A stretch of 39,768 nt of DNA, from positions 1-39,768 of the forward strand of contig ONSY01000165.1 in NCBI GenBank assembly GCA_900320605.1, in the 5' to 3' direction. The notes beneath the pieces were generated by a model. That model made no database searches. It was not told where the DNA came from and saw only the letters and a list, made by a program, of their open reading frames with translations. Made by a program: the position numbers and the translations under genes. The DNA comes from an uncultured Eubacteriales bacterium (GTDB lineage Bacteria; Bacillota; Clostridia; Oscillospirales; Acutalibacteraceae). This document shows positions 15,713 to 30,090 of this stretch, in pieces (positions within the stretch are counted from its first letter, which is position 1; the number at the start of each line of letters is the position of its first letter).

Positions 15713-15741
15713 TTGACAGAGTTCGGAAAGAGTGGTATTGT
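15713..15741 (+). promoter_or_regulatory. Promoter of the SARP-like regulator
   Basis: TTGACA (15713-15718), 17-base spacer, TATTGT (15736-15741), in an AT-rich patch. Confidence 0.7.
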
Positions 15742-15861: not shown

Positions 15862-17064
15862 ATGGAAACTGAGAAGAAAAACGTAATAGACGTCAGGATG
15901 TTCGGCAATCTGTCGATCACCTACAACGGCCGTCAGCTCATGGAAAGCAGGAGCTCCGAAACGCAGTTCAACTATCTGATGCAGCTCCTTCTGTATTTCC
16001 GCGAACAGGGCGTGACGCGCGCTCAGCTTCGCGACGTGCTGTTTGAGGACCGTGAGATCGAGGATGTTCAGCACTCGATGCGCAACATCATCTACAACGC
16101 GAAGAAACGGCTTTCGGCGAACGGCCTGCCCGCCGTGAACTATATTGAGTATTCTTCGGGCGTCTACCGCTTTACGGATGAGATCCCGGTGGTTTCCGAT
16201 ACCGACCGGATGCGGGAGCTCTCCCGGCAGGCCGCTCTGGAACCCGATCCGGAAAGGAAGCTCGGCTATCTGCTCGACGCCTGCCGTGTCTACACCGGAA
16301 GCTTTCTCAAGATGCAGAGCGGCATCCTGTGGGTTTCCGAGGAACAGCGCCGCTGGCGCGCGGTTTTCCGTCAGTGCGCCGAAGAGGCGGCGGAAATTCT
16401 CCGTATGAAGAAGGATTACACCGAGCTTTCGAGACTCGGCGAATACGCGTCGAAGGTTGACCCGTTCTCTGACTGGGAAAGTCTCCAGATCGAATCGCTC
16501 TCGGCGGCCGGAAGATACGAACAGGCGCAGGATCTGTTCGACAGAACGGCGGAAGCGTATATCCTGGAGCACGGCATCCGCTCCCGCGAGTATCTTCGGG
16601 AGCTGTCAAACCGCCTGTGCGCGAGGATGTATCACCAGTACGAGGAAATCGAGGATATCCAGGGCGAGCTCAACGATCCCGAGGATCCGGCGAAAGGCGG
16701 ATATCTCTGTTCGCTTCCGGTTTTCCAGGGAATCTACCGTACCGTGGAGAGAACGATGGAACGCCACAGCGACATGGTCTTCCTGATGCTCTGCACGATT
16801 GTCGACAGCAAGGGCAATCCGATGGCAGAGGGATCGATGCTCGACGAACTGTCAGACCGCCTCTGCGTCGCCGTAACGAGATCCGTGCGGCACAGCGACA
16901 CCGTGGCGCGCTACGGAAAAGGACAGTATCTTGTACTGCTGCTGCATACGCCGCGCGAAAACTGCCCGATCATTCAGAAGCGCATCAATCAGAACTTCCT
17001 GATCGGCCGGCAGCGTACCGGAGTCAAATACCATGTAAACTCCGTCATTCTCACCTCCCTGTAA
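15862..17064 (+). CDS. SARP-like regulator: winged helix + BTAD + degenerate GGDEF domain
   Basis: A 400-residue cytosolic protein. Residues 8-105 are a winged-helix domain of the kind found in SARP/AfsR regulators (IDVRMFGNLSITYNGR, then RDVLFEDREIEDVQHSMRN and YNAKKRLS). Residues about 112-255 are a helical bacterial transcriptional activator domain (DACRVYTGSFL, YASKVDPFSDWESLQIE, EHGIRSREYLREL). Residues about 285-400 look like a GGDEF fold whose active site is lost: GKGQY (352-356) replaces GGDEF, while RHSD (343-346), five residues upstream, keeps the RxxD inhibitory-site pattern. It may bind DNA under c-di-GMP control rather than make c-di-GMP. Its promoter is at 15713. The c-di-GMP phosphodiesterase gene follows. 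Confidence 0.8.
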   Translation: METEKKNVIDVRMFGNLSITYNGRQLMESRSSETQFNYLMQLLLYFREQGVTRAQLRDVLFEDREIEDVQHSMRNIIYNAKKRLSANGLPAVNYIEYSSGVYRFTDEIPVVSDTDRMRELSRQAALEPDPERKLGYLLDACRVYTGSFLKMQSGILWVSEEQRRWRAVFRQCAEEAAEILRMKKDYTELSRLGEYASKVDPFSDWESLQIESLSAAGRYEQAQDLFDRTAEAYILEHGIRSREYLRELSNRLCARMYHQYEEIEDIQGELNDPEDPAKGGYLCSLPVFQGIYRTVERTMERHSDMVFLMLCTIVDSKGNPMAEGSMLDELSDRLCVAVTRSVRHSDTVARYGKGQYLVLLLHTPRENCPIIQKRINQNFLIGRQRTGVKYHVNSVILTSL

Positions 17065-17239: not shown

Positions 17240-19453
17240 ATGACAGACAGACAGGCACTCATTCGCTCCGCAAGCTCGAAGCGAAGCATACTCGTCGTTG
17301 AGGACGAGATGATCAACCGGGAGATTCTCGGATTTCTGATCGGAGACGAATATCATGTTCTCTTCGCGGAGACAGGCGCCGGGGCGCTTGAAATCATCGA
17401 AGAGCAGTACCGCATGCTCAGTCTCGTGCTTCTGGACCTGAACCTTCCCGATATGAAGGGGCAGGAGATCCTGTGCCGCATCAAGGAAGACGAGCGCACC
17501 GCGAATCTTCCGGTTATCGTTATGACGGCGGATTCCGACGCCGAGGTGGAATGCCTTGTTCTGGGCGCCACGGATTTCATCCCGAAACCGTACCCGAAGC
17601 GCGAGGTGATTCTGGCGCGCATCCTGCGCACGATCGAGCTCTTTGAGGAGCGTGACATCATCCGTTCCACGGAGCGCGACGCGCTTACCGGGCTTTACAA
17701 CCGCGAGTATTTCTACCGCTACTCCGCGCAGTTCGACACCTTCCATCCGGGCACCGAAACGGACGCCGTCCTGATCGACGTGAACCATTTCCACATTCTC
17801 AATGAGCGTTACGGCAGGAACTACTGCGACGGGCTTCTCCGGAAGATCGCGTCGGCGCTGCTCGAGATCTTCGGGAAAACCGGCATTGTCTGCCGCAGGG
17901 AGGCGGACACGTTCCTCGTCTACTGCCTGCACCGAACTGACTACGAACAGGTCCTCGGCAATATCGGGGAAATCGAGGGAAACCAGATTCACCTGCGCGC
18001 GGGCGTCTATTCGAATGTCGACCGCTCCATCGAGGTCGAACGCCGCTTTGACCGCGCGAAACTCGCCGCGGATACCGTGAGAAACAGCTTCACCAGGTGG
18101 ATCGCGATCTACGACGATTCCCTCCATGAGAAGGAGGTCTTCGCCGAGCGGCTGATGGAAAGCTTCCATACCGCCGTCCGGGAAAAGCAGTTCACCGTTC
18201 ATTATCAGCCGAAATTCGACGTGCGTCCCCGGGAGCCGGTTTTGAACAGCGCCGAGGCGCTCGTGCGCTGGAAGCATCCGGAGTTCGGAATGGTCAGTCC
18301 CGGAGTGTTCATCCCGCTCTTCGAGGAAAACGGACTGATCCGGGAACTCGACTCCTATGTCTGGCGCGAGGTCGCCTCCCAGATCCGTCAGTGGAAGAAA
18401 AAGCTCGGACGTCCGATTCCGGTTTCCATCAACGTCTCGCGCATCGATCTGTATGATCCGAAGCTTCCCGAGACGCTCGATGAGATCGTTTTGAACTACG
18501 GCCTTTCGCACGATGAACTGCTGCTGGAAATCACGGAATCCGCCTATACGGAGAATTCCGATCAGATTATCGGCATCGTCAGTCAGCTGCGGGAGAGCGG
18601 TTTCCACATTGAGATGGATGATTTCGGAACCGGCTATTCTTCGCTCAATATGATCTCGAAGCTTCCGATCGACGTGCTCAAACTCGATATGCAGTTTATC
18701 CGCACCGCGTTCCGGGAGCGCAAGGATACGCGTCTGCTCGAGGCGATCATCGGCCTCGCGAAATCCATGAATCTGCCGACGATCGCGGAAGGCGTCGAAA
18801 CGGCGGAGCAGATGTTCACCCTGAAATCCATGGGATGCGACGTGATCCAGGGATATTATTTCTCGAAGCCGCTTCCGGCGGAAGAATTCGAGACGTATGT
18901 GAGAAACCTTGCCGTCACGGAGGCTCCGGGAGTGCCGGAAGCGAGGGGCGCGGTGAAGGAAGCCCCGCGCGACCGGCATACCTACGAGGCACTTCATGAT
19001 CCTCTGACCGGTCTTTACAACCACAGCGCGTTCGATATTCTGTTCCAGGATTCAGATCAGGCCCATATCGCCGTCATGATCGCCACGGTGGACGATTACG
19101 CCGCCATCCGGCGCGAGCGCGGCGCAGATTACGCGAACCGCGCGGTTCTGCGCGTGGCGGACGTCCTGCGCGGCAGCTTCCGTTCCGCGGATCATGTCTG
19201 CCGTCTGCAGGAGGATGAATTCGTCGTGATCATGACCCGCATGAGCAGCTCGATGCAGGATCTGGTGCTTTCGAAGGTGGAGCAGATCAATTCGGCGCTC
19301 GCGGCTTCGGCGGACGGGCTCGATTCCATCTCGCTGAGCGTCGGCATCGCGTTCTCGGACCGCGAAAATCCGCAGGGCGACGTCTTCACCGACGCCGATA
19401 CCGCGCTGAAAAAAATGAAGCAGATCCGACGCAACGGCTGCGCGGTCTACTGA
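17240..19453 (+). CDS. Response regulator c-di-GMP phosphodiesterase: REC-GGDEF*-EAL-GGDEF*
   Basis: A 737-residue cytosolic protein with four domains. REC: residues 16-135, phosphoacceptor D66 (VLLDLNLP), K116. First GGDEF: about 145-290, active site replaced by EADTF (221-225). EAL: about 300-555, with E339 (AEALVRW), N398, E430/E433 (EITES), D460 and D461 (MDDFGTGYSS), K481 and E517 (AEGVE), so all metal and catalytic residues appear present. Second GGDEF: about 580-737, QEDEF (657-661) in place of GGDEF but RSAD (648-651) kept as a possible c-di-GMP site. It should hydrolyse c-di-GMP to pGpG when activated by phosphorylation at D66. Start ATG 17240 behind CCGGAGG. Confidence 0.92.
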   Translation: MTDRQALIRSASSKRSILVVEDEMINREILGFLIGDEYHVLFAETGAGALEIIEEQYRMLSLVLLDLNLPDMKGQEILCRIKEDERTANLPVIVMTADSDAEVECLVLGATDFIPKPYPKREVILARILRTIELFEERDIIRSTERDALTGLYNREYFYRYSAQFDTFHPGTETDAVLIDVNHFHILNERYGRNYCDGLLRKIASALLEIFGKTGIVCRREADTFLVYCLHRTDYEQVLGNIGEIEGNQIHLRAGVYSNVDRSIEVERRFDRAKLAADTVRNSFTRWIAIYDDSLHEKEVFAERLMESFHTAVREKQFTVHYQPKFDVRPREPVLNSAEALVRWKHPEFGMVSPGVFIPLFEENGLIRELDSYVWREVASQIRQWKKKLGRPIPVSINVSRIDLYDPKLPETLDEIVLNYGLSHDELLLEITESAYTENSDQIIGIVSQLRESGFHIEMDDFGTGYSSLNMISKLPIDVLKLDMQFIRTAFRERKDTRLLEAIIGLAKSMNLPTIAEGVETAEQMFTLKSMGCDVIQGYYFSKPLPAEEFETYVRNLAVTEAPGVPEARGAVKEAPRDRHTYEALHDPLTGLYNHSAFDILFQDSDQAHIAVMIATVDDYAAIRRERGADYANRAVLRVADVLRGSFRSADHVCRLQEDEFVVIMTRMSSSMQDLVLSKVEQINSALAASADGLDSISLSVGIAFSDRENPQGDVFTDADTALKKMKQIRRNGCAVY

Positions 19454-19487: not shown

Positions 19488-19516
19488 TAGACGCGCGCCG
19501 TTTCCTGTGATATAAT
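19488..19516 (+). promoter_or_regulatory. Extended -10 promoter of the pilus-like operon
   Basis: TAGACG (19488-19493), a 17-base spacer and TATAAT (19511-19516) preceded by TGA, an extended -10. Transcription should begin near 19523. Confidence 0.75.
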
Positions 19517-19615: not shown

Positions 19616-20548
19616 GTGAGAGCCTTGCGGCACAGAATACGCATATTTTCCCTGCTGCTCGCGCTCATCCTGATCCTGGCAGGCTGCGGGGAGGATTCTC
19701 CCGCCGGCGTTCCGGATCCTTCTCCCGGGGAGAACTTCGTTCCCTACAAGGCGCCGCCCATGGCCGAGTCGGCGTTTCATCCAGAAGCGGCGCAGGGAAA
19801 CGAGGAGGCGCAGATCGATATCTCCTCGGTCAGCGAAGGATATGTCGCCGTATCCGGAAAGTCGGACCGGCGCATGAAATTCCAGGTCCTTTTCAACGAT
19901 CTTACCTATAACTACGATCTTTCGTCCGACGGCACGCCCTCAATCTTTCCGCTTCAGTGCGGAGACGGCCATTATATCTTCCGTGTCGCGAAGAATATTT
20001 CCGAGAGCAAATACGCGATGATCCATACCGTCGAGTGCGACGTGACACTCAAGGACGAATTTCAGCCGTTCCTGCGTCCGAGCGACTACAGCAACTACAG
20101 CGCGCAGTCCGAATGCGTCAGGAAGGCGGCGCAGCTCGCCGAAACCTGCTCGAGCGCGCTCGAGGTCGTCTCCGCGGTCTACGATTTCGTCTGCGGAAAC
20201 GTGAAGTACGACTATGAAAAGGCCGAAACGGTTTCTTCCGGATACCTGCCGGACGTGGACGAGACGCTGCGCACGAAGAAGGGCATCTGCTTCGACTACG
20301 CGTCGCTCGCCGCCGCGATGCTGCGAAGCCAGGGGATTCCCACGAAGATCATCTTCGGGTATGTGGAACCCGACAATGTCTATCACGCGTGGAATATGTT
20401 CTATACGAAGGAAAGCGGCTGGGTAACCGTAAAATTCGAGGTTAAGGGAAAAATCTGGACGCGGGTGGACATGACCTTCGCCGCGGGCGGAGTCCCGGCG
20501 GAATTCGTCGGCGACGGAAGCAATTATACAGACGTATTTTCCTACTGA
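19616..20548 (+). CDS. Transglutaminase-like lipoprotein
   Basis: 310 residues with a lipoprotein signal (hydrophobic residues 11-22, LAGC, Cys 24). After a beta-rich region lies a transglutaminase core at about 180-290, with Cys 225 in KKGICFDYASLAAAML, His 257 in VYHAWN and Asp 285 in RVDMTF, a complete triad. Bacterial members act outside the membrane as peptidases or amide-forming enzymes on protein or peptidoglycan substrates. GTG 19616 is very close to its GAGGG site; TTG 19625 (three residues shorter) has better spacing and may be the true start. It is the first of nine tightly spaced genes ending at 26123, so it probably works with the pilus-like machine. Confidence 0.85.
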   Translation: MRALRHRIRIFSLLLALILILAGCGEDSPAGVPDPSPGENFVPYKAPPMAESAFHPEAAQGNEEAQIDISSVSEGYVAVSGKSDRRMKFQVLFNDLTYNYDLSSDGTPSIFPLQCGDGHYIFRVAKNISESKYAMIHTVECDVTLKDEFQPFLRPSDYSNYSAQSECVRKAAQLAETCSSALEVVSAVYDFVCGNVKYDYEKAETVSSGYLPDVDETLRTKKGICFDYASLAAAMLRSQGIPTKIIFGYVEPDNVYHAWNMFYTKESGWVTVKFEVKGKIWTRVDMTFAAGGVPAEFVGDGSNYTDVFSY

Positions 20549-20566
20549 TAAAGGGGGAGCGAACAG

Positions 20567-21610
20567 ATGAGCAAGAAAAAACTGGATGAGCTCGGCGTCA
20601 GCGCGTTCTGCGAAAGCATGGCGATGATGATCAAGTCCGGTATTCAGACCGATGAAGCGGTGGCGCTTCTGCAGAGCGAAAGCGGGAGCCATGGAATTCT
20701 TTCCGACGGCCTGCGCTATATGAAAGAACAGCTCGAGAGCGGAAGCACGTTCGCGGACGCGATGAAGGGCGCGGATATTTTCCCGGATTTCGCCGTTCAG
20801 ATGATCGAAGCGGGCGAAAGTTCCGGACGTCTCGAGAGCGTGCTTTTCCGGCTGTCGCGCTATTACGCCGATCAGAAGACGCTTTCCGAGAAGATCCGCG
20901 GCGCGGTGACCTATCCCGCCGCGATGCTCGTGCTGATCATCGCGGTGCTGATCGTGATGATCACGGTCGTGCTGCCGGCGTTCCGCGCCGTGTATGACCG
21001 TCTGACCGGCTCGATCGCAGCTTCCTCGTACGCGTACATCCGCTGGGCGGGTGTTTTCTGCACGGCGGCGCTGATCATTCTGGCGGCCGTTGCCGCGGTG
21101 CTGCTTGTCCTGGTGATCCTCTGGAAAACCGGCAGGCGCGATACGGTACTCGGACTTCTGGAAAAGATTCCGAGCTGCCGCTCCATTTTAAGAACGAACG
21201 CACTGTTCCGTTTCACCTCCGCGCTGAGCACGTTCCTCGCGAGCGGCGAAATGCAGGATGAAGCGGTGCTTAAGAGTATTCCCATGGCCGATTCCAGAAG
21301 TCTCGAGCCCAAACTTCAGAGCCTTTACAGACGCATGGAGGAAGGCCACAGCATCTCCCAGGCTGCCTACGATGAGGAGCTCTTCGATCCGGTCTACGGC
21401 CGGATGCTGCTCGCGGGCGAACGCAGCGGCGAGCTGGAGCACGTGCTCGAACGCCTGACGGAGCTTCTGGAGGAAAGCAGCACGCATCAGGTGGACCGGC
21501 TGATCGAAATCGTCGGGCCGGTGCTCTCCGGCGTGCTGATGGTAGTCATCGGTCTTACGCTCATCAGCGTGATGCTGCCGCTGATCGGTATGATGAACGC
21601 GATCGGGTAA
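20567..21610 (+). CDS. pilC: Type IV pilus/type II secretion inner-membrane platform protein (PilC/GspF family)
   Basis: 347 residues with two T2SSF domains (about 7-130 and 205-330). Signature stretches are MIEAGESSGRLESVLFRLSRYY and its repeat MLLAGERSGELEHVLERLTELLEE. Three membrane segments lie near residues 115-140, 150-185 and 312-342. In type IV pili this protein links the cytosolic ATPase to the growing or shrinking pilus. It lies 18 bases behind the transglutaminase gene and begins at ATG 20567 after GGGGGAGC. It is about 50 residues shorter at the N-terminus than typical PilC, close to the clostridial type. Confidence 0.9.
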   Translation: MSKKKLDELGVSAFCESMAMMIKSGIQTDEAVALLQSESGSHGILSDGLRYMKEQLESGSTFADAMKGADIFPDFAVQMIEAGESSGRLESVLFRLSRYYADQKTLSEKIRGAVTYPAAMLVLIIAVLIVMITVVLPAFRAVYDRLTGSIAASSYAYIRWAGVFCTAALIILAAVAAVLLVLVILWKTGRRDTVLGLLEKIPSCRSILRTNALFRFTSALSTFLASGEMQDEAVLKSIPMADSRSLEPKLQSLYRRMEEGHSISQAAYDEELFDPVYGRMLLAGERSGELEHVLERLTELLEESSTHQVDRLIEIVGPVLSGVLMVVIGLTLISVMLPLIGMMNAIG

Positions 21611-21620
21611 GGAGGAAAGC

Positions 21621-21938
21621 ATGTACTCGGAACCTGTAAAGCGCAGAACAGGCCTGCTTGTCTTTCTGATTGTGCTGGTGCTGTTCGCGGTTATGGTCGG
21701 ACTTGTCTTCCTGCATTCCGGCCGCGATATCAGCGAGGAAGGCGCGACGGCCATCCGTGAGACGGTGCGCCGCAGCGCGCTGCAGTGCTATGTGGTGGAA
21801 GGCGTTTATCCGCCGGATCTCGATTATCTTGTGCGCAACTACGGCCTCGCGGTCAATACGGAGGATTATGTCGTGGTATACGAATGCTTCTCGTCGAATC
21901 TTCCGCCCACGGTCCGGGTCGTCGCCCGCAGTCTGTAA
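21621..21938 (+). CDS. Small single-pass membrane protein of the pilus-like operon
   Basis: 105 residues: a basic start (MYSEPVKRRT), one transmembrane helix (about 11-30) and a short outer domain with EEGATAIRETVRRSALQCYVVEG and YPPDLDYLVRNYGL. The single N-terminal helix followed by an alpha-beta domain resembles pilins and pseudopilins, but there is no prepilin cleavage site (G followed by FxxxE). The motif YPPDLDYL recalls minor pseudopilins. No enzyme signature is present. Genes like it appear, from memory, next to pilC in clostridia. It begins 10 bases after pilC, behind AAGGAGGAAAGC. Confidence 0.75.
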   Translation: MYSEPVKRRTGLLVFLIVLVLFAVMVGLVFLHSGRDISEEGATAIRETVRRSALQCYVVEGVYPPDLDYLVRNYGLAVNTEDYVVVYECFSSNLPPTVRVVARSL

Positions 21939-21956
21939 CGGGGGAGGAACGGCCTT

Positions 21957-22424
21957 ATGAGGAAAACTGAAAAAAACCCGATCCTTCTTCTGTCCGTCGG
22001 CCTTTCGGCGCTGTTTCTGGCGGGATTTCTGCTCCTCGTCATTTTCGGCGCGAAGAGTTACCGGGACATTGTCTCTTCGCAGTACGGCAATATGGACGCG
22101 CGGTCGCTGACGGCGTATCTTTCCGCGAGCGTGAAAGCGAACGACAGCAGCGGCGCGGTCAGCGTCGAGGAGACCGGATACGGTCCGGCGCTTGTCGTGA
22201 CCGATCCCGAAACGGGATACGCGCTGCGGTATTATCATTACAACGGACAGCTTCTGGAGGATTTCGCTCCCGCGGATTCCCCGCTGGATCCCGATGAGGC
22301 GCAGCAGATCGCGCCGACACAGACATTTGAAGTGGAACGCATTTCGCAGGACGTCTTTTCCGTTACGACGGACACCGGACGGACTCTTTTGCGCGTCCGA
22401 AGCGAAGAGGAGGCGGCGCCGTGA
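21957..22424 (+). CDS. DUF4860-like membrane protein
   Basis: 155 residues with one N-terminal transmembrane helix (about 10-32) and an extracellular domain rich in beta strand (LTAYLSASVKAND, GPALVVTDPETGYALRYYHYNGQ, VTTDTGRTLLRVRS). It resembles the DUF4860 family from clostridia; I am moderately sure of that. It has no prepilin motif. It is likely a structural or priming component beside the other small single-pass proteins. It starts 18 bases after the previous gene, and its stop overlaps the next start (GTGA). Confidence 0.7.
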   Translation: MRKTEKNPILLLSVGLSALFLAGFLLLVIFGAKSYRDIVSSQYGNMDARSLTAYLSASVKANDSSGAVSVEETGYGPALVVTDPETGYALRYYHYNGQLLEDFAPADSPLDPDEAQQIAPTQTFEVERISQDVFSVTTDTGRTLLRVRSEEEAAP

Positions 22425-22864
22425 AGAAACAGCAGCTGACTTCATTTTATCTGGAATCGCTTGTCCTGATCGCCGCGTTTGTCGCGATGATCCTCGTGCT
22501 GACAGGTGTTTTCGGCGCTTCCCGCAGCCAGAGCGTGAAGGCACGGGATCTTTCGCAGGCGGTCACGATCGCCGCGAACGCGGCGGAGGCGGTATCCGCT
22601 TCCGGCACGCTCGAGGAAGCGGCGGCGCTGCTTGATCAGGGCGGCAACGTACAGATCAGGGACGGCGCGATTGAAGCGTTCTACCGCGCGGACGGCGCTC
22701 CCTGTCCCGACGGGGACGGCGCGCTGCGGCTTCTCCTGACCTGGGAGGTTTCCGGGTTGGATCCGTCGCTTGTGGAAAGCACACTGACCGTTTTCACAGA
22801 GAAAGACGGGAAAGAACTCTACTCTCTTGAGACGGCGCGTTACCGGAAGGAGGCGGCAGCATGA
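22421..22864 (+). CDS. Pilin-like single-pass protein
   Basis: 147 residues starting MKKQQLTSFYLESLVLIAAF. The hydrophobic helix (about 9-32) carries a glutamate near its start (FYLES), similar to the E5 of type IV pilins, and is followed by RSQSVKARDLSQAVTIAANA, like the amphipathic half of a pilin helix. The residue before the presumed cleavage point is Ser or Thr rather than Gly, so processing by a prepilin peptidase is uncertain. The globular part is short (about 90 residues). It overlaps both neighbours (GTGA at 22421, ATGA at 22861), which indicates tight translational coupling. Confidence 0.7.
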   Translation: MKKQQLTSFYLESLVLIAAFVAMILVLTGVFGASRSQSVKARDLSQAVTIAANAAEAVSASGTLEEAAALLDQGGNVQIRDGAIEAFYRADGAPCPDGDGALRLLLTWEVSGLDPSLVESTLTVFTEKDGKELYSLETARYRKEAAA

Positions 22865-23256
22865 AGAAGCCTCCGTTCCGTCTGGGACCGCTCGCGCTGC
22901 TGCTGACGGTAATCAGCATCTGCCTTACGATCCTGGCGATATTGACCTTTACCACCGCGAGGGCGGATCTGCGCCTCTCGGAGGAATACGCACAGACTAC
23001 AAAGGCCCGCTGCGCGCTCGAGGCGCAGGGGCAGGAATATTTAAGCCGGCTCAATCAGGGCCTGGAGACAGCTCCGGAAACGGACGAAGACGGCCTGTGC
23101 CGCGTGGAGCTTGAGCACGAGGGGTATCTTCTTCATATCGCGCTGCGTCCCGGTGCCGGCGGCTATGAAATCGCTTCCTGGAAATCGGAAAAGATCTGGG
23201 AGCAGAGCGATACGATCGACAATCTCTGGAACGGCAGTTTCACAAAAGGAGAATAA
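22861..23256 (+). CDS. Small single-pass membrane protein of the pilus-like operon
   Basis: 131 residues: MKKPPFRLGPLALLLTVISI, one transmembrane helix (about 10-32), a helix with EEYAQTTKARCALEAQGQEYL and a short outer domain ending WNGSFTKGE. The arrangement (helix, then small domain) again resembles a minor pilin without a canonical cleavage site. No known domain name comes to mind. It overlaps the preceding gene by four bases and ends one base before the pilT start. Confidence 0.7.
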   Translation: MKKPPFRLGPLALLLTVISICLTILAILTFTTARADLRLSEEYAQTTKARCALEAQGQEYLSRLNQGLETAPETDEDGLCRVELEHEGYLLHIALRPGAGGYEIASWKSEKIWEQSDTIDNLWNGSFTKGE

Positions 23257-23257
23257 T

Positions 23258-24316
23258 ATGAACATACTGGAAATCCTGGAAAAAGCGATTGCCGCCCAGG
23301 CGGCGGACGTGTTCCTGGTTGCCGGTCTTCCGGTCACCTTCAAGTGCGGCGGCCATCAGCAGCGTCTCGAGAGCGAGATGCTCATGCCCGCCCAGATCAA
23401 CGTGCTGGTCGATGAAATCTACGATTTTGTCAAACGCAGCAGAGGAAACCTCGAACGCGGCGCGGACGACGACTTTTCCTTCGCGGTGCAGAAACTCGGA
23501 CGTTTCCGCGTCAATGTGTTCCGCCAGCGCGGTTCGCTCGCCGCGGTGATCCGCGTGATCCGGTTCGGCCTGCCCGATCCGAAACAGCTCGGAATTCCGG
23601 AGAGCGTTCTCTCGCTCGCCGACAACAAGAAGGGCCTCGTGCTGATCACCGGTTCCGCCGGAACGGGAAAATCCACCACGCTCGCGTGCATGATCGACCG
23701 GATCAACAAAACCCGCGACGCGCATATCATCACCATGGAGGATCCGATCGAATACATTCACCGCCACGACAAATCGATCGTTTCCCAGCGCGAAATCTCC
23801 ATCGATACCCCCGGTTATCTCGAATCGCTGCGCTCCGCGCTGCGCGAGAGCCCGGACGTGATCCTGCTCGGCGAGATGCGCGACTACGACACCATCTCCG
23901 CGGCGATCACGGCGGCGGAAACCGGCGTGCTTCTGCTGAGCACCCTTCACACGAGTTCCGCGGCGAACACGATCAACCGGATCCTCGACGTATTTCCGGC
24001 GAACCAGCAGAAGCAGGTCAAGATTCAGCTCGCCCAGATTCTCAAGGGCGTCGTCTGCCAGCAGCTCGTTCCTTCGGTGGACGGCAGCCAGATTCCGGCT
24101 TTTGAGATCATGAAAACGACCGTCGCGATTCAGAACATGATCCGCGAGGACAAGCTCCATCAGCTTGAATCCGCCATGCAGGCGGGCGCCGCGGACGGCA
24201 TGTGCACGATGGACAGCAGTCTGCTGAAACTGTACAGAGAGGGCAGAATCACCAGAGATACGGCGATGCTCTCCTGTGTCAACTACGAAACGATGTCCAA
24301 GCGCCTCGGCGCGTAA
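23258..24316 (+). CDS. pilT: PilT-type ATPase
   Basis: 352 residues, a hexameric secretion ATPase. Motifs: Walker A GSAGTGKST (132-140), Asp box ITMEDPIEY (158-166), Walker B DVILLGEMRD (200-209), His box LLSTLHTSS (227-235) and AIQNMIRE (290-297), which corresponds to the AIRNLIRE signature of PilT retraction ATPases. It acts in the cytosol at the PilC platform. There is no PilB-type extension ATPase in the window, so this may be the only motor for the local machine. Although the frame is open upstream, ATG 23258 is chosen: it lies one base after the previous stop, behind AAAGGAGAAT. Confidence 0.93.
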   Translation: MNILEILEKAIAAQAADVFLVAGLPVTFKCGGHQQRLESEMLMPAQINVLVDEIYDFVKRSRGNLERGADDDFSFAVQKLGRFRVNVFRQRGSLAAVIRVIRFGLPDPKQLGIPESVLSLADNKKGLVLITGSAGTGKSTTLACMIDRINKTRDAHIITMEDPIEYIHRHDKSIVSQREISIDTPGYLESLRSALRESPDVILLGEMRDYDTISAAITAAETGVLLLSTLHTSSAANTINRILDVFPANQQKQVKIQLAQILKGVVCQQLVPSVDGSQIPAFEIMKTTVAIQNMIREDKLHQLESAMQAGAADGMCTMDSSLLKLYREGRITRDTAMLSCVNYETMSKRLGA

Positions 24317-24352
24317 AAAAATCAGGACGAACAACAATCCGGGGAGGGAAAC

Positions 24353-25714
24353 ATGAGTCAGAAATCAACCGAAACTGAAAAGAGACGGGACGGAATCCGG
24401 CTGAGCGGCTTCTATATCGCGGCGGCTCTGATATTTGCCGTACTCACGTTTTTCCTCCTTTTTTCAACCTATCGCACGAGCGAGGGCTTTTCTCAGACGG
24501 AGGAGGCTACCGAAGAGTACATCACAGCGCAGCAGGCGGCTTCGAATATCCAGGCCGCTTCCGATTACCTGACCTCCCAGGCCCGCGCCTTCGCGGCGAC
24601 GGGTGAGGTGAGCCACGCGGAAAATTTCTTTGAGGAAGTCAACGTGACGCGCAGAAGGGATCTGGCGCTCGAGACGATCCGGAATTACATGAGCGGAACG
24701 TCGACGCTCAGCTATCTGAGCGACGCGCTCGAGAACTCCAACCATCTGCTCGAAGTCGAATGCTACGCGATGCGTCTCGCGGCCGAGAGCTACGGGCAGG
24801 ATCTGTCCTCACTGCCGAAGGGCTGCGCGCAGGTGACGCTCGATGACGCGGATCTCGCGCTTTCCGCGGAACAGCAGCGCGACAAGGCGCTCCTGATGCT
24901 CTTCGATGACACCTACCAGGGATATAAGGACGAGATCAGACGCTGTGTTTCGCAGAGCGTGGAAGTGCTGATCGGAGAAATGCGGCAGGGGCAGGAGGAC
25001 AGCCTGAAGGAACTGCAGCGCCGGATCTACCGCGAGGAATTCCTGATCGTGGTGATGCTGCTCGCCGCGCTGATCCTGATCGCGTTCAACATTCTCTTCG
25101 TTTCCCATCCGCTGCGCAGATTTGTCAGCCACATCCGCGCCGACGAGACGCTTCCCGAGAAGGGGGCGAGCGAACTGCGGTTCCTGGCGCGCACATACAA
25201 CAAAACCCGCGAGCAGAACCTGCGGCACCGCGAACAGCTCAACTACGACGCGACGCATGACGCGCTCACCGGCGTTTTCAACCGTTCCGTCTTCGAAAAG
25301 CTGCGCTCCCGTCTGAGCGAACGCGAAAACGCCCTGCTCATCATCGATCTGGACAAATTCAAGACGATCAACGACCGGTACGGCCACGACGTCGGCGACC
25401 GCGCGCTCTGCCGCGTGGCGTCGCTTCTGCAGGAACGGTTCCGCGCGGAAGACTATATCTGCCGCATCGGCGGCGATGAGTTCGCCGTGATCATGGTCCA
25501 CGCGGATTCGTCGCTCGGCGAGCTTGTGAAGGAGAAAATCCGCGGGATCAACGAAACGCTCAATATTCCGCAGGACGGCCTTCCGCCGATCAGCCTGAGC
25601 GTGGGCGTCGCCTTCGGTGACCGCGGCAACCCGACCGACGATGTTTTCAAAGACGCCGATACCGCCCTGTACCGCACGAAGAGCGTGCGCACCGGCGGAT
25701 GTGAGATATACTGA
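24353..25714 (+). CDS. Membrane diguanylate cyclase with intact GGDEF and I-site
   Basis: 453 residues. Two transmembrane helices (18-40 and 229-250) flank a helical sensor domain of about 190 residues outside the cell, followed by a short linker and a GGDEF domain (about 295-453). The active site is intact (RIGGDEFAVI, 371-380), as are the Mg/GTP features IIDLDKFKTINDRYGHDVGD. RAED (364-367), five residues before GGDEF, is a standard RxxD product-inhibition site. It should make c-di-GMP from two GTP. It is the only clearly active diguanylate cyclase in the window and is encoded inside the pilus-like operon, directly after pilT. Start ATG 24353 after GGGGAGGG. Confidence 0.93.
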   Translation: MSQKSTETEKRRDGIRLSGFYIAAALIFAVLTFFLLFSTYRTSEGFSQTEEATEEYITAQQAASNIQAASDYLTSQARAFAATGEVSHAENFFEEVNVTRRRDLALETIRNYMSGTSTLSYLSDALENSNHLLEVECYAMRLAAESYGQDLSSLPKGCAQVTLDDADLALSAEQQRDKALLMLFDDTYQGYKDEIRRCVSQSVEVLIGEMRQGQEDSLKELQRRIYREEFLIVVMLLAALILIAFNILFVSHPLRRFVSHIRADETLPEKGASELRFLARTYNKTREQNLRHREQLNYDATHDALTGVFNRSVFEKLRSRLSERENALLIIDLDKFKTINDRYGHDVGDRALCRVASLLQERFRAEDYICRIGGDEFAVIMVHADSSLGELVKEKIRGINETLNIPQDGLPPISLSVGVAFGDRGNPTDDVFKDADTALYRTKSVRTGGCEIY

Positions 25715-25781
25715 AAGACCGGGAGCGTCCGGGAGACGGCGTTTCCGGAGGGAAAACTGCAAAAGGAGAATACGTAAAATT

Positions 25782-26123
25782 ATGCTGACCATTGAGACTC
25801 TGAAACAGGCCGGGGCGAATACGGCCAAAGGCATGGAACGGTGCATGAACAACGAGGCGTTTTATCTGCGCCTTGTCAATATGGCGCTTGACGACGCGAG
25901 CTTCGGAAAACTGGAGCACGCCGTGCGCGGCGGGGACGTCAAGGCCGGATTTGAAGCCGCGCATTCCCTCAAGGGCGTTCTGGGAAACCTGGAGCTGACG
26001 CAGATCTATGAGCCGGTCAGCGCGCTGACGGAGCTTCTGCGTTCCGGCGAGCCGGCGGACGGCACGGCCTACCTCGAGGAGATCCTGAAAAAACGCGATG
26101 AGCTGCTTGCGCTTCGCGGATAA
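25782..26123 (+). CDS. Histidine phosphotransfer (Hpt) protein
   Basis: A 113-residue all-helical protein with AAHSLKGVLGNL; H61 is the phosphorylated histidine of an Hpt four-helix bundle. Such proteins pass phosphate between a hybrid kinase REC domain and a response regulator REC domain. Start ATG 25782 follows AAAGGAG at 25762-25768; an in-frame longer reading exists but lacks a ribosome site. It is the last gene of the pilus-like operon. Possible partners are the hybrid kinase (28378) and the REC-EAL protein (17240), both within the window. Confidence 0.9.
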   Translation: MLTIETLKQAGANTAKGMERCMNNEAFYLRLVNMALDDASFGKLEHAVRGGDVKAGFEAAHSLKGVLGNLELTQIYEPVSALTELLRSGEPADGTAYLEEILKKRDELLALRG

Positions 26124-28338: not shown

Positions 28339-28377
28339 AATAAGCAATACATCCGATTCAGAAGGAGCGTGAGAAAG

Positions 28378-30090
28378 ATGGGAAAAGAATACGCGGTTCG
28401 GCGTCCGGACGGCGCGATTCTGTATTCGAGCGCGGGATTTGACGTTTCGGCCGTGACGGATACGGCATTGCTTTCCGACGGGAACGAGCTTCTGATCTGC
28501 GGAACGGATTCACTCGCCGAGGAAAACCGCGATCTCCTTGCGCAGCTCGAGGAGGCGAAGGCCGCCAATATCGCCAAGGAAACCTTCCTTTCAAACATGT
28601 CTCACGATATCCGCACCCCGATGAACGCCATCATCGGGATGGCGGCGCTTGCCAAAAACCATATTGATGAGAAAAACCGCGTGATCGACGCGCTCGGCAA
28701 GATCGAGACCGCGAGCGGTCACCTGCTCTCGCTAATCAACGACGTGCTTGACATGTCGCGCATCAATTCCGGCAGAATGCAGATCGCGAACGAAAGCTTC
28801 CTGCTTTCCGATCTGCTTCACGACACAATGACGATCCTTCGGCCCCAGATCGCGGCGAAGCACCATTCCTATCAGCTTATCACACAGGAGATCACCCGCG
28901 AGCGTCTGATCGGAGACGTCCTGAAACTGAGGCAGATCTATGTCAATATCATCAACAATTCCGTTAAATACACAAACGACGGCGGAAATATCACCATTAC
29001 AGTATCCGAAGAGATCCGGGGAGACCGCTGCCTGCTGATTTTTGTCTGTGAGGACAACGGCATCGGCATGAGCAGGGAGTTCCTCGAGCGCATCTTCGAT
29101 CCGTTCGAGCGCGTCAACAGTTCCACCATCTCAAAGATCGAGGGTACGGGCCTCGGAATGAGTATCGTCAAGAAGATGGTGGACGCGATGAGCGGAACGA
29201 TCGACGTTGAGAGCGAGCTCGGGGAATTCACCAGAATACGCATCGCGATTCCGCTCAGATATGAGACGGAACCGCTTGTGATCGACGCGCTGCGCGATCA
29301 CCGCCTGCTCATCATCGAGACCGATGAAAAGCAGAAAGCGCTGTTTGAGGAGTATCTCAGGGAGGCGCTCGTTTCCGTTACCATCGTTCCCGACGCGCCG
29401 AAGGCGATCGACGCGATCACCGAGGCTTCCTTCCGGGGAGAGGAGAAATTCCGTGCGCTGATTCTCGGAAAATCCCATGACGGAGAGGGAAGCGTGTTCC
29501 AGATCGCCTCATATTTCCATTCCGCGAATCCGGAACTGCCGATCATTCTCGCGAGTGACGACAACTGGGAGGAGATCGAATACCAGGCGAACCGCAGCGG
29601 AATTCATACCTTCATCCCGCTGCCGTTCTTCCGCAAATCGCTGCTCAACTCGATCAACCACGCGGTTCTCGGGGAATCCGATGAGGACCGCTCTCCGTAT
29701 CCGCAGCTCGCGGGCAAGAAAATCCTGCTCGTTGAGGACAACATGATCAACCGCGAAATCGCCGGGGAGCTGCTTTCCGTGACGAACGCGCAGGTGATCA
29801 CCGCGGAGAACGGACAGGAAGCCGTGGAACGCTATCTGTCCGAAGAGGAAGGCTCGCTGAGCCTGATCCTGATGGATATCCAGATGCCTGTGATGGACGG
29901 CTATGAGGCCGCGTCGAAGATCCGCGGGAGCGGACGGAGCGACGCGGGGACGATCCCGATCTTCGCGATGACCGCGAATACGTTTGCCGAGGATATCGCA
30001 AAAGCGAAAGCCGCCGGAATGAACGGCCATATCGGAAAGCCGATCGATATGAATCTGCTGATGCAGACACTTCGCTTAATCGAAACATAA
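28378..30090 (+). CDS. Soluble hybrid histidine kinase with one dead and one intact REC domain
   Basis: 570 residues with no membrane helix. A short N-terminal part (1-45) and a coiled coil (about 46-68) lead to HisKA (H76 in SNMSHDIRTPMNAIIG) and the HATPase domain: NIINNSVKYTNDGG (190-203), CEDNGIGM (224-231), GTGLGMSI (256-263). A first REC domain (about 305-432) lacks the phosphoacceptor (ALILGKSH, D replaced by G). A second REC domain (447-568) has D500 (LILMDIQMPVMDG) and K554. The signal must come through the short N-terminus or a partner. Start ATG 28378 follows GAAGGAG; a GTG at 28369 is too close to that site. The degenerate HD-GYP protein is encoded directly downstream. Confidence 0.92.
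   Translation: MGKEYAVRRPDGAILYSSAGFDVSAVTDTALLSDGNELLICGTDSLAEENRDLLAQLEEAKAANIAKETFLSNMSHDIRTPMNAIIGMAALAKNHIDEKNRVIDALGKIETASGHLLSLINDVLDMSRINSGRMQIANESFLLSDLLHDTMTILRPQIAAKHHSYQLITQEITRERLIGDVLKLRQIYVNIINNSVKYTNDGGNITITVSEEIRGDRCLLIFVCEDNGIGMSREFLERIFDPFERVNSSTISKIEGTGLGMSIVKKMVDAMSGTIDVESELGEFTRIRIAIPLRYETEPLVIDALRDHRLLIIETDEKQKALFEEYLREALVSVTIVPDAPKAIDAITEASFRGEEKFRALILGKSHDGEGSVFQIASYFHSANPELPIILASDDNWEEIEYQANRSGIHTFIPLPFFRKSLLNSINHAVLGESDEDRSPYPQLAGKKILLVEDNMINREIAGELLSVTNAQVITAENGQEAVERYLSEEEGSLSLILMDIQMPVMDGYEAASKIRGSGRSDAGTIPIFAMTANTFAEDIAKAKAAGMNGHIGKPIDMNLLMQTLRLIET

Follow-up and report, generated by a model that had tools for sequence, protein, structure and literature searches.

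A SARP-like regulator with a degenerate GGDEF domain as a candidate c-di-GMP-responsive activator in Clostridia

Described SARP activators and c-di-GMP receptors

The SARP activators, among them AfsR, EmbR and DnrI, are built on a winged-helix DNA-binding domain followed by a BTAD domain, an arrangement that they have in common with the regulator described here. The signalling part lies at the C-terminus of these proteins and is of the NOD-TPR type in AfsR and of the FHA type in EmbR. The regulator, encoded in a stretch of 39,768 nucleotides from an uncultured Eubacteriales bacterium (contig ONSY01000165.1, hereafter the window), differs from AfsR and EmbR in that its C-terminal part is a degenerate GGDEF domain and its BTAD domain falls below the Pfam cut-off.

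A second group of related systems comprises the degenerate GGDEF proteins PopA, PelD and SgmT, which, like the regulator, have lost the active site and kept the RxxD motif as ligand site, a role for which the motif of the regulator is a candidate. In this capacity of degenerate-GGDEF c-di-GMP receptors, PopA is described in a 2025 review (PMC12564702) and SgmT in PMC3509222. Of the three, PopA is a response regulator with a role in proteolysis, PelD sits in the membrane as a receptor and SgmT is a histidine kinase; none of them is itself a DNA-binding activator, as the regulator is predicted to be. Two members of the regulator family weakly match the Pfam PelD_GGDEF model. Product-inhibited diguanylate cyclases such as PleD, DgcR and the T. 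maritima enzyme (4urg/4urs) have the GGDEF fold, the RxxD motif and an equivalent of PleD R390 placed as in the regulator, which is however devoid of their catalytic motif, of the metal-site Asp and of the end of the fold. A GGDEF-like fold is also found inside transcription regulators of the PucR/CdaR type, as the GGDEF_2 domain (Pfam PF17853), which is not known to bind c-di-GMP; only two of the 86 members of the regulator family match this model, with a best E-value of 0.0026.

Like the c-di-GMP-binding transcription factors, the regulator would make promoter activity directly dependent on c-di-GMP. In the transcription-factor rows considered from the review (PMC12564702), the domains named for ligand binding are REC, ATPase, PilZ, TetR-type and others, with no GGDEF-based example. 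Likewise, the open-access literature, which misses most subscription journals, yielded no relevant paper on a GGDEF domain in a SARP or BTAD protein. In other words, degenerate GGDEF receptors and SARPs are both known kinds of protein, and their combination in one DNA-binding activator, as predicted from sequence, appears to be new within the literature searched. The family is widespread in Clostridia and, within the reach of the searches, has no description so far. To our knowledge, c-di-GMP protein receptors in gut Clostridia are poorly known; a widespread activator reading this nucleotide would, if confirmed, fill this gap and provide an entry point to pilus control. On the evidence presented below, we consider it quite likely that the regulator is a c-di-GMP-responsive SARP-type activator of the adjacent operon, employing the I-site of its dead GGDEF domain as receptor.

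Predicted fold, lost active site and kept I-site

The open reading frame of the regulator is real: it has homologues with 93% and 52% identity, and dozens more align over the full length at 20-28%. Pfam assigns neither of its domains above threshold (BTAD 16.7 bits against a cut-off of 22.1; GGDEF 17.5 against 23.8). The AlphaFold model of the full-length protein (pLDDT 83.3) has three parts: a winged helix, the helical BTAD domain and, set apart from them, an alpha/beta domain at the C-terminus. In Foldseek searches, the N-terminal part of this model, an OmpR-type winged helix followed by BTAD, matches AfsR (8k60/8hvr, transcription initiation complexes) and EmbR (2ff4) with E about 1e-10, in agreement with the SARP-like assignment of the preliminary description, and the C-terminal part matches GGDEF domains. 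When the C-terminal domain is modelled alone with 86 homologues, pLDDT is 91.5 and pTM 0.84. The best match of this model is 6khu (2.1 Å rmsd, TM 0.73). The 50 PDB entries listed for it are either diguanylate cyclases or other proteins with a GGDEF domain, among them the c-di-GMP-bound 3ign, 5euh and 6zxm as well as PleD 9g85. Moreover, a profile built from the C-terminal domains of the family finds solved diguanylate cyclases at 2.5e-10. The fold is thus not an unrelated one, and the GGDEF-like domain previously placed at residues 285-400 does lie there; its bounds need correction, as it starts nearer residues 277-280 and stops after the strand formed by residues 389-396, so that it lacks the final helix and strand of a complete GGDEF domain. 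According to these models, the regulator is a SARP fold, with winged helix and BTAD, followed by a truncated GGDEF fold (Table 1).

Table 1. Coordinates of the regulator, its sites and its neighbours in the window, with module-bearing proteins of other loci
Feature	Position	Strand	Remark
Promoter-like site of regulator gene (TTGACA, 17 nt, TATTGT)	15713..15741	+	
SARP-like regulator ending in a degenerate GGDEF domain	15862..17064	+	400 aa, ATG start
Winged-helix DNA-binding domain, residues ~8-108	15883..16185	+	predicted secondary structure; Foldseek to AfsR, EmbR
BTAD helical domain, residues ~110-257	16189..16632	+	Pfam BTAD 114-251 below cut-off; AfsR/EmbR fold
Degenerate, truncated GGDEF domain, residues 277-400	16690..17061	+	AlphaFold, Foldseek, profile match
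R301, candidate arginine of the secondary I-site (region of PleD R313)	16762..16764	+	R in 79/86
RHSD, residues 343-346, primary I-site RxxD	16888..16899	+	R in 83/86, D in 85/86
GKGQY, residues 352-356, lost active-site motif	16915..16929	+	GG(D/E)EF in 0/86 homologues
R374, third primary I-site residue	16981..16983	+	R in 83/86 homologues
REC-GGDEF(degenerate)-EAL-GGDEF(degenerate), probable phosphodiesterase	17240..19453	+	Pfam; EAL catalytic motifs intact by eye
Promoter-like site before pilus-like operon (poor -35 TAGACG, extended -10 TG n TATAAT)	19488..19516	+	
Transglutaminase-like lipoprotein, first gene of pilus-like operon	19616..20548	+	
PilC/GspF-like (T2SSF) protein	20567..21610	+	
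Small pilin-like protein, kept in syntenic operons	21621..21938	+	no Pfam match
DUF4860 protein	21957..22424	+	
Two small pilin-like proteins (22421-22864 and 22861-23256)	22421..23256	+	
PilT-family ATPase, likely ATG at 23258	23258..24316	+	TIGR01420, 405.8 bits
Membrane HAMP-like protein with intact GGDEF	24353..25714	+	only ordinary cyclase found in the genome
Hpt-domain protein, whose actual start probably lies after 25714	25617..26123	+	
Module-bearing tandem protein, locus L195	443-1831	+	
Module-bearing tandem protein, locus L196		-	
Module-bearing tandem protein, locus L193	915-2276	+	
Module-bearing HD-GYP protein, locus L194		-	

Conservation was assessed in 86 C-terminal domains from the class, with about 12-62% identity to the domain of the window and most of them at 20-30%. 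An active cyclase carries a GG(D/E)EF motif and the metal-site Asp, and the regulator has GKGQY instead, with Gln at the position of the Glu of the motif in 80 of the 86 domains. The possibility that the regulator is an active cyclase is ruled out, since the active-site motif is gone in every homologue (86/86).

A different picture emerges for the I-site. As read in the translation and already reported in the preliminary description, RHSD and GKGQY are separated by five residues (TVARY). In degenerate GGDEF receptors an RxxD lies five residues ahead of the place of the GGDEF motif and is accompanied by an equivalent of PleD R390, and the regulator has both: RxxD is kept in 83 of the 86 domains and all three primary I-site residues in 82. 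R374 aligns with the Arg located at the same distance behind the GGDEF motif in 4urg, SadC (4wxo) and DgcR (6zxm). In PleD numbering we take RxxD to be R359/D362, R374 to be R390 and the R301 region to be that of R313; R301 would then be the counterpart of the secondary-site Arg. A first full-length alignment of 22 sequences has only 12 invariant columns, two of which are R343 and D346, and the four I-site positions all fall within the nine of 124 columns conserved at 90% or more, an overlap whose chance probability is about 1e-5 in a calculation that does not account for how well RxxD is conserved across GGDEF folds in general. Two further residues are near-invariant and have no obvious I-site role, namely C283 (16708-16710; 66 of 67 family sequences) and R297 (16750-16752; 82/86).

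The weight of this conservation depends on how other GGDEF domains behave. Among 49 sampled domains of ordinary cyclases, nearly all from related genomes, RxxD is present in 39, the equivalent of D346 in 44, all three I-site residues in eight, and an Arg at the position of R374 in 11, against 83 of the 86 regulator homologues. A further set of 38 degenerate GGDEF domains, most of which come from EAL proteins in genomes of the same family, shows RxxD in five, all of them near-canonical (GGDEY, QEDEF, GGDTF), with possible register errors in the most diverged rows. The EAL protein next to the regulator is a case in point, as its first degenerate GGDEF has lost the motif (GKTG) and its third domain keeps RSAD. 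An occurrence of RxxD in the regulator by chance is ruled out by the conservation in 83 of 86 homologues together with this behaviour of other degenerate domains.

These comparisons also bear on the proposal that the C-terminal domain serves for dimerisation or as a scaffold and nothing more, with R343, D346 and R374 forming salt bridges that stabilise the shortened fold and no nucleotide being bound. The frequency of the D346 equivalent in ordinary domains and the existence of near-invariant residues with no assigned role, R297 and C283, speak in its favour. However, other degenerate GGDEF domains fold without RxxD, and R374 is far more conserved than in ordinary cyclases, which makes a pure scaffold unlikely. 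The caveat raised earlier, that the Asp of the motif is conserved in many GGDEF folds for structural reasons, is a fair one for D346, but it leaves the retention of both arginines unexplained. It is very improbable that the ligand is ppGpp, GTP, a cyclic GMP-AMP, or c-di-GMP together with ppGpp, in place of c-di-GMP alone. PleD 9g85, with both c-di-GMP and ppGpp, shows that the GGDEF fold can accommodate further guanine nucleotides, but the residues kept in the regulator are those of the c-di-GMP product site, and the motif of the GTP site is lost in every homologue.

Association with cyclases and recurrence of the module

If the domain reads c-di-GMP, the genomes that encode it should be able to make it, and a link of this kind is observed. 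At least one GGDEF hit is found in 19 of 21 full-length carriers against 64 of 179 non-carriers in a sample of the family, in 49 of 52 against 114 of 243 in a sample of the order (Fisher, p 3e-11), and in 29 of 30 against 226 of 301 in a sample of the class (Fisher, p 0.005), where the three samples share a few genomes, the statistics ignore phylogeny and genome size, and larger genomes may hold both kinds of gene, possibly inflating the association. A scaffold function gives no reason for so strong a link, and the fact that the partners are GGDEF cyclases argues against a ligand other than c-di-GMP.

The exceptions are informative in both directions. Among carriers for which I-site and cyclase content were both read, a GGDEF hit is present in 82 of 86 genomes, the exceptions being G101, G143, G286 and G371; the I-site departs from the consensus in two of these four and in one of the 82 (p 0.005). 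In particular, the site reads N, S, K in G371 and P, D, G in G286, and both copies remain full-length open frames in genomes devoid of a cyclase hit, which again speaks against a scaffold held together by these residues. The single departure among the 82 is that of G471 (locus L186), with Q, D, R, where Q replaces R343 although this carrier has cyclases. On the other hand, G101 (99% complete; locus L075) and G143 (95%; locus L073) keep all the residues with no GGDEF hit, as a scaffold would allow, and carriers with no detected cyclase are also what a different nucleotide ligand would predict. Furthermore, the assembly of G371 is 84% complete and contains two c-di-GMP-I riboswitches, so that a cyclase may have escaped detection. 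The link of I-site loss with absence of cyclases is, because of the incompleteness of G371 and the kept sites of G101 and G143, suggestive and not clean. G143 is also without EAL, and its congener G012 has 14 GGDEF matches.

The C-terminal domain is not confined to SARP-like proteins. Matches covering this domain alone identify proteins of the type REC-GGDEF-module (L195, L196, L193) and HD-GYP-degenerate GGDEF-module (L194), in which REC and HD-GYP were assigned by eye from the sequence. The three REC-GGDEF proteins have an intact GGDEF without an RxxD of its own (SEGD, that is with the Arg lost, or no match), and RRSD or RRND stands in their appended module together with the equivalent of R374. 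The simplest reading is that the appended module would supply the c-di-GMP site in these proteins. The module would be mobile, being common to cyclases and HD-GYP proteins and replacing the lost I-site of the enzyme. On balance, it seems probable that one-component activators throughout the Clostridia sense c-di-GMP through the I-site of a dead GGDEF domain, and that this domain is a mobile, undescribed module common to cyclases and HD-GYP proteins. Its recurrence on cyclases lacking an I-site would show how a product-inhibition site can be transferred to a separate domain and reused as a sensor. The fusion to such cyclases adds to the lost active site with RxxD and R390 equivalent kept in 82 of 86 domains, to the loss of RxxD in most other degenerate domains, to the co-occurrence with cyclases and to the concentration of I-site losses in carriers with no detected cyclase, and all five bear out the earlier suggestion of a domain turned from enzyme to sensor. 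As a side observation, on I-site-less cyclases and on the HD-GYP protein the domain could be a product-sensing module acting in trans.

The locus and a model of its regulation

The neighbours agree with the preliminary description, which placed the regulator next to a phosphodiesterase and upstream of a pilus-like operon: it is followed by an EAL protein, in which the usual catalytic motifs are present, and then by the operon. Judging from its gene content, the operon 19616-24316 is of a type IV pilus-like kind; it is without a separate PilB-type ATPase. The ordinary GGDEF cyclase at the end of the operon (24353-25714) had gone unmentioned. Profile searches of the 92% complete assembly for GGDEF, EAL, PilZ, MshEN and the c-di-GMP-I riboswitch detect three GGDEF domains and one EAL, all inside the window, and none of the other three; many of the carrier genomes tested are likewise without PilZ and without c-di-GMP-I riboswitches. 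Control of the locus by a c-di-GMP riboswitch was considered and rejected, as no Rfam match reaches the gathering score in the window. The genome of this gut bacterium looks like a minimal circuit, with one cyclase, an EAL protein, a candidate receptor and an output operon, which would make testing easy.

The binding pocket being kept almost without exception in related Clostridia, the regulator probably switches the pilus operon on or off according to the level of c-di-GMP. In the model that we propose, the winged helix and BTAD would engage DNA and RNA polymerase, as in AfsR, and the C-terminal GGDEF would not synthesise c-di-GMP and would instead bind it at the old product-inhibition site, through R343, D346, R374 and probably R301. 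An intercalated c-di-GMP dimer may then join two protomers through their I-sites, by analogy with PleD, DgcR and PopA, and thereby pair or re-orient two winged helices on promoter repeats. SARPs act as protomers side by side on direct repeats, typically near the -35, and ligand-driven pairing would for this reason be a natural switch. The likeliest targets would be the promoter region of the regulator itself and the pilus-like operon 19616-25714. The cyclase at the operon end, the EAL phosphodiesterase and the regulator would constitute a c-di-GMP circuit of their own, with feedback: activation of the operon would imply positive feedback, since the operon ends in a cyclase, and the EAL protein would oppose it.

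Alternatively, the regulator might bind c-di-GMP and act on distant genes and not on the neighbouring operon, which we regard as doubtful though not far-fetched. No convincing SARP direct repeats are seen upstream of 15862, 17240 or 19616, and their absence before the regulator and the operon fits distant targets. The same can be said of the distant homologues, most of which have unrelated neighbours: only a minority adjoin the pilus-like operon and many lie among housekeeping genes, so that the target need not be pili family-wide. However, a regulator homologue adjoins a homologous pilus-like operon in five further genomes (G025, G152, G038, G051 and G135) belonging to four genera, despite identities of 20-28%. 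In addition, the promoter-like site at 19488 joins a poor -35 to an extended -10, as would be expected for an activator-dependent promoter, which again points to the operon as a target. Of the elements before the regulator gene, both TTGACA and TATTGT recur upstream of the homologue with 93% identity. In seven other loci, with flanks of about 1.5-2.5 kb read, the homologue adjoins a GGDEF gene. Finally, a gene for a hybrid histidine kinase-REC protein lies at 28369-30090, near the Hpt gene (25617-26123) that comes directly after the cyclase gene, and the EAL protein encoded at 17240-19453 could receive phosphate on its REC domain from these two products by way of a phosphorelay.
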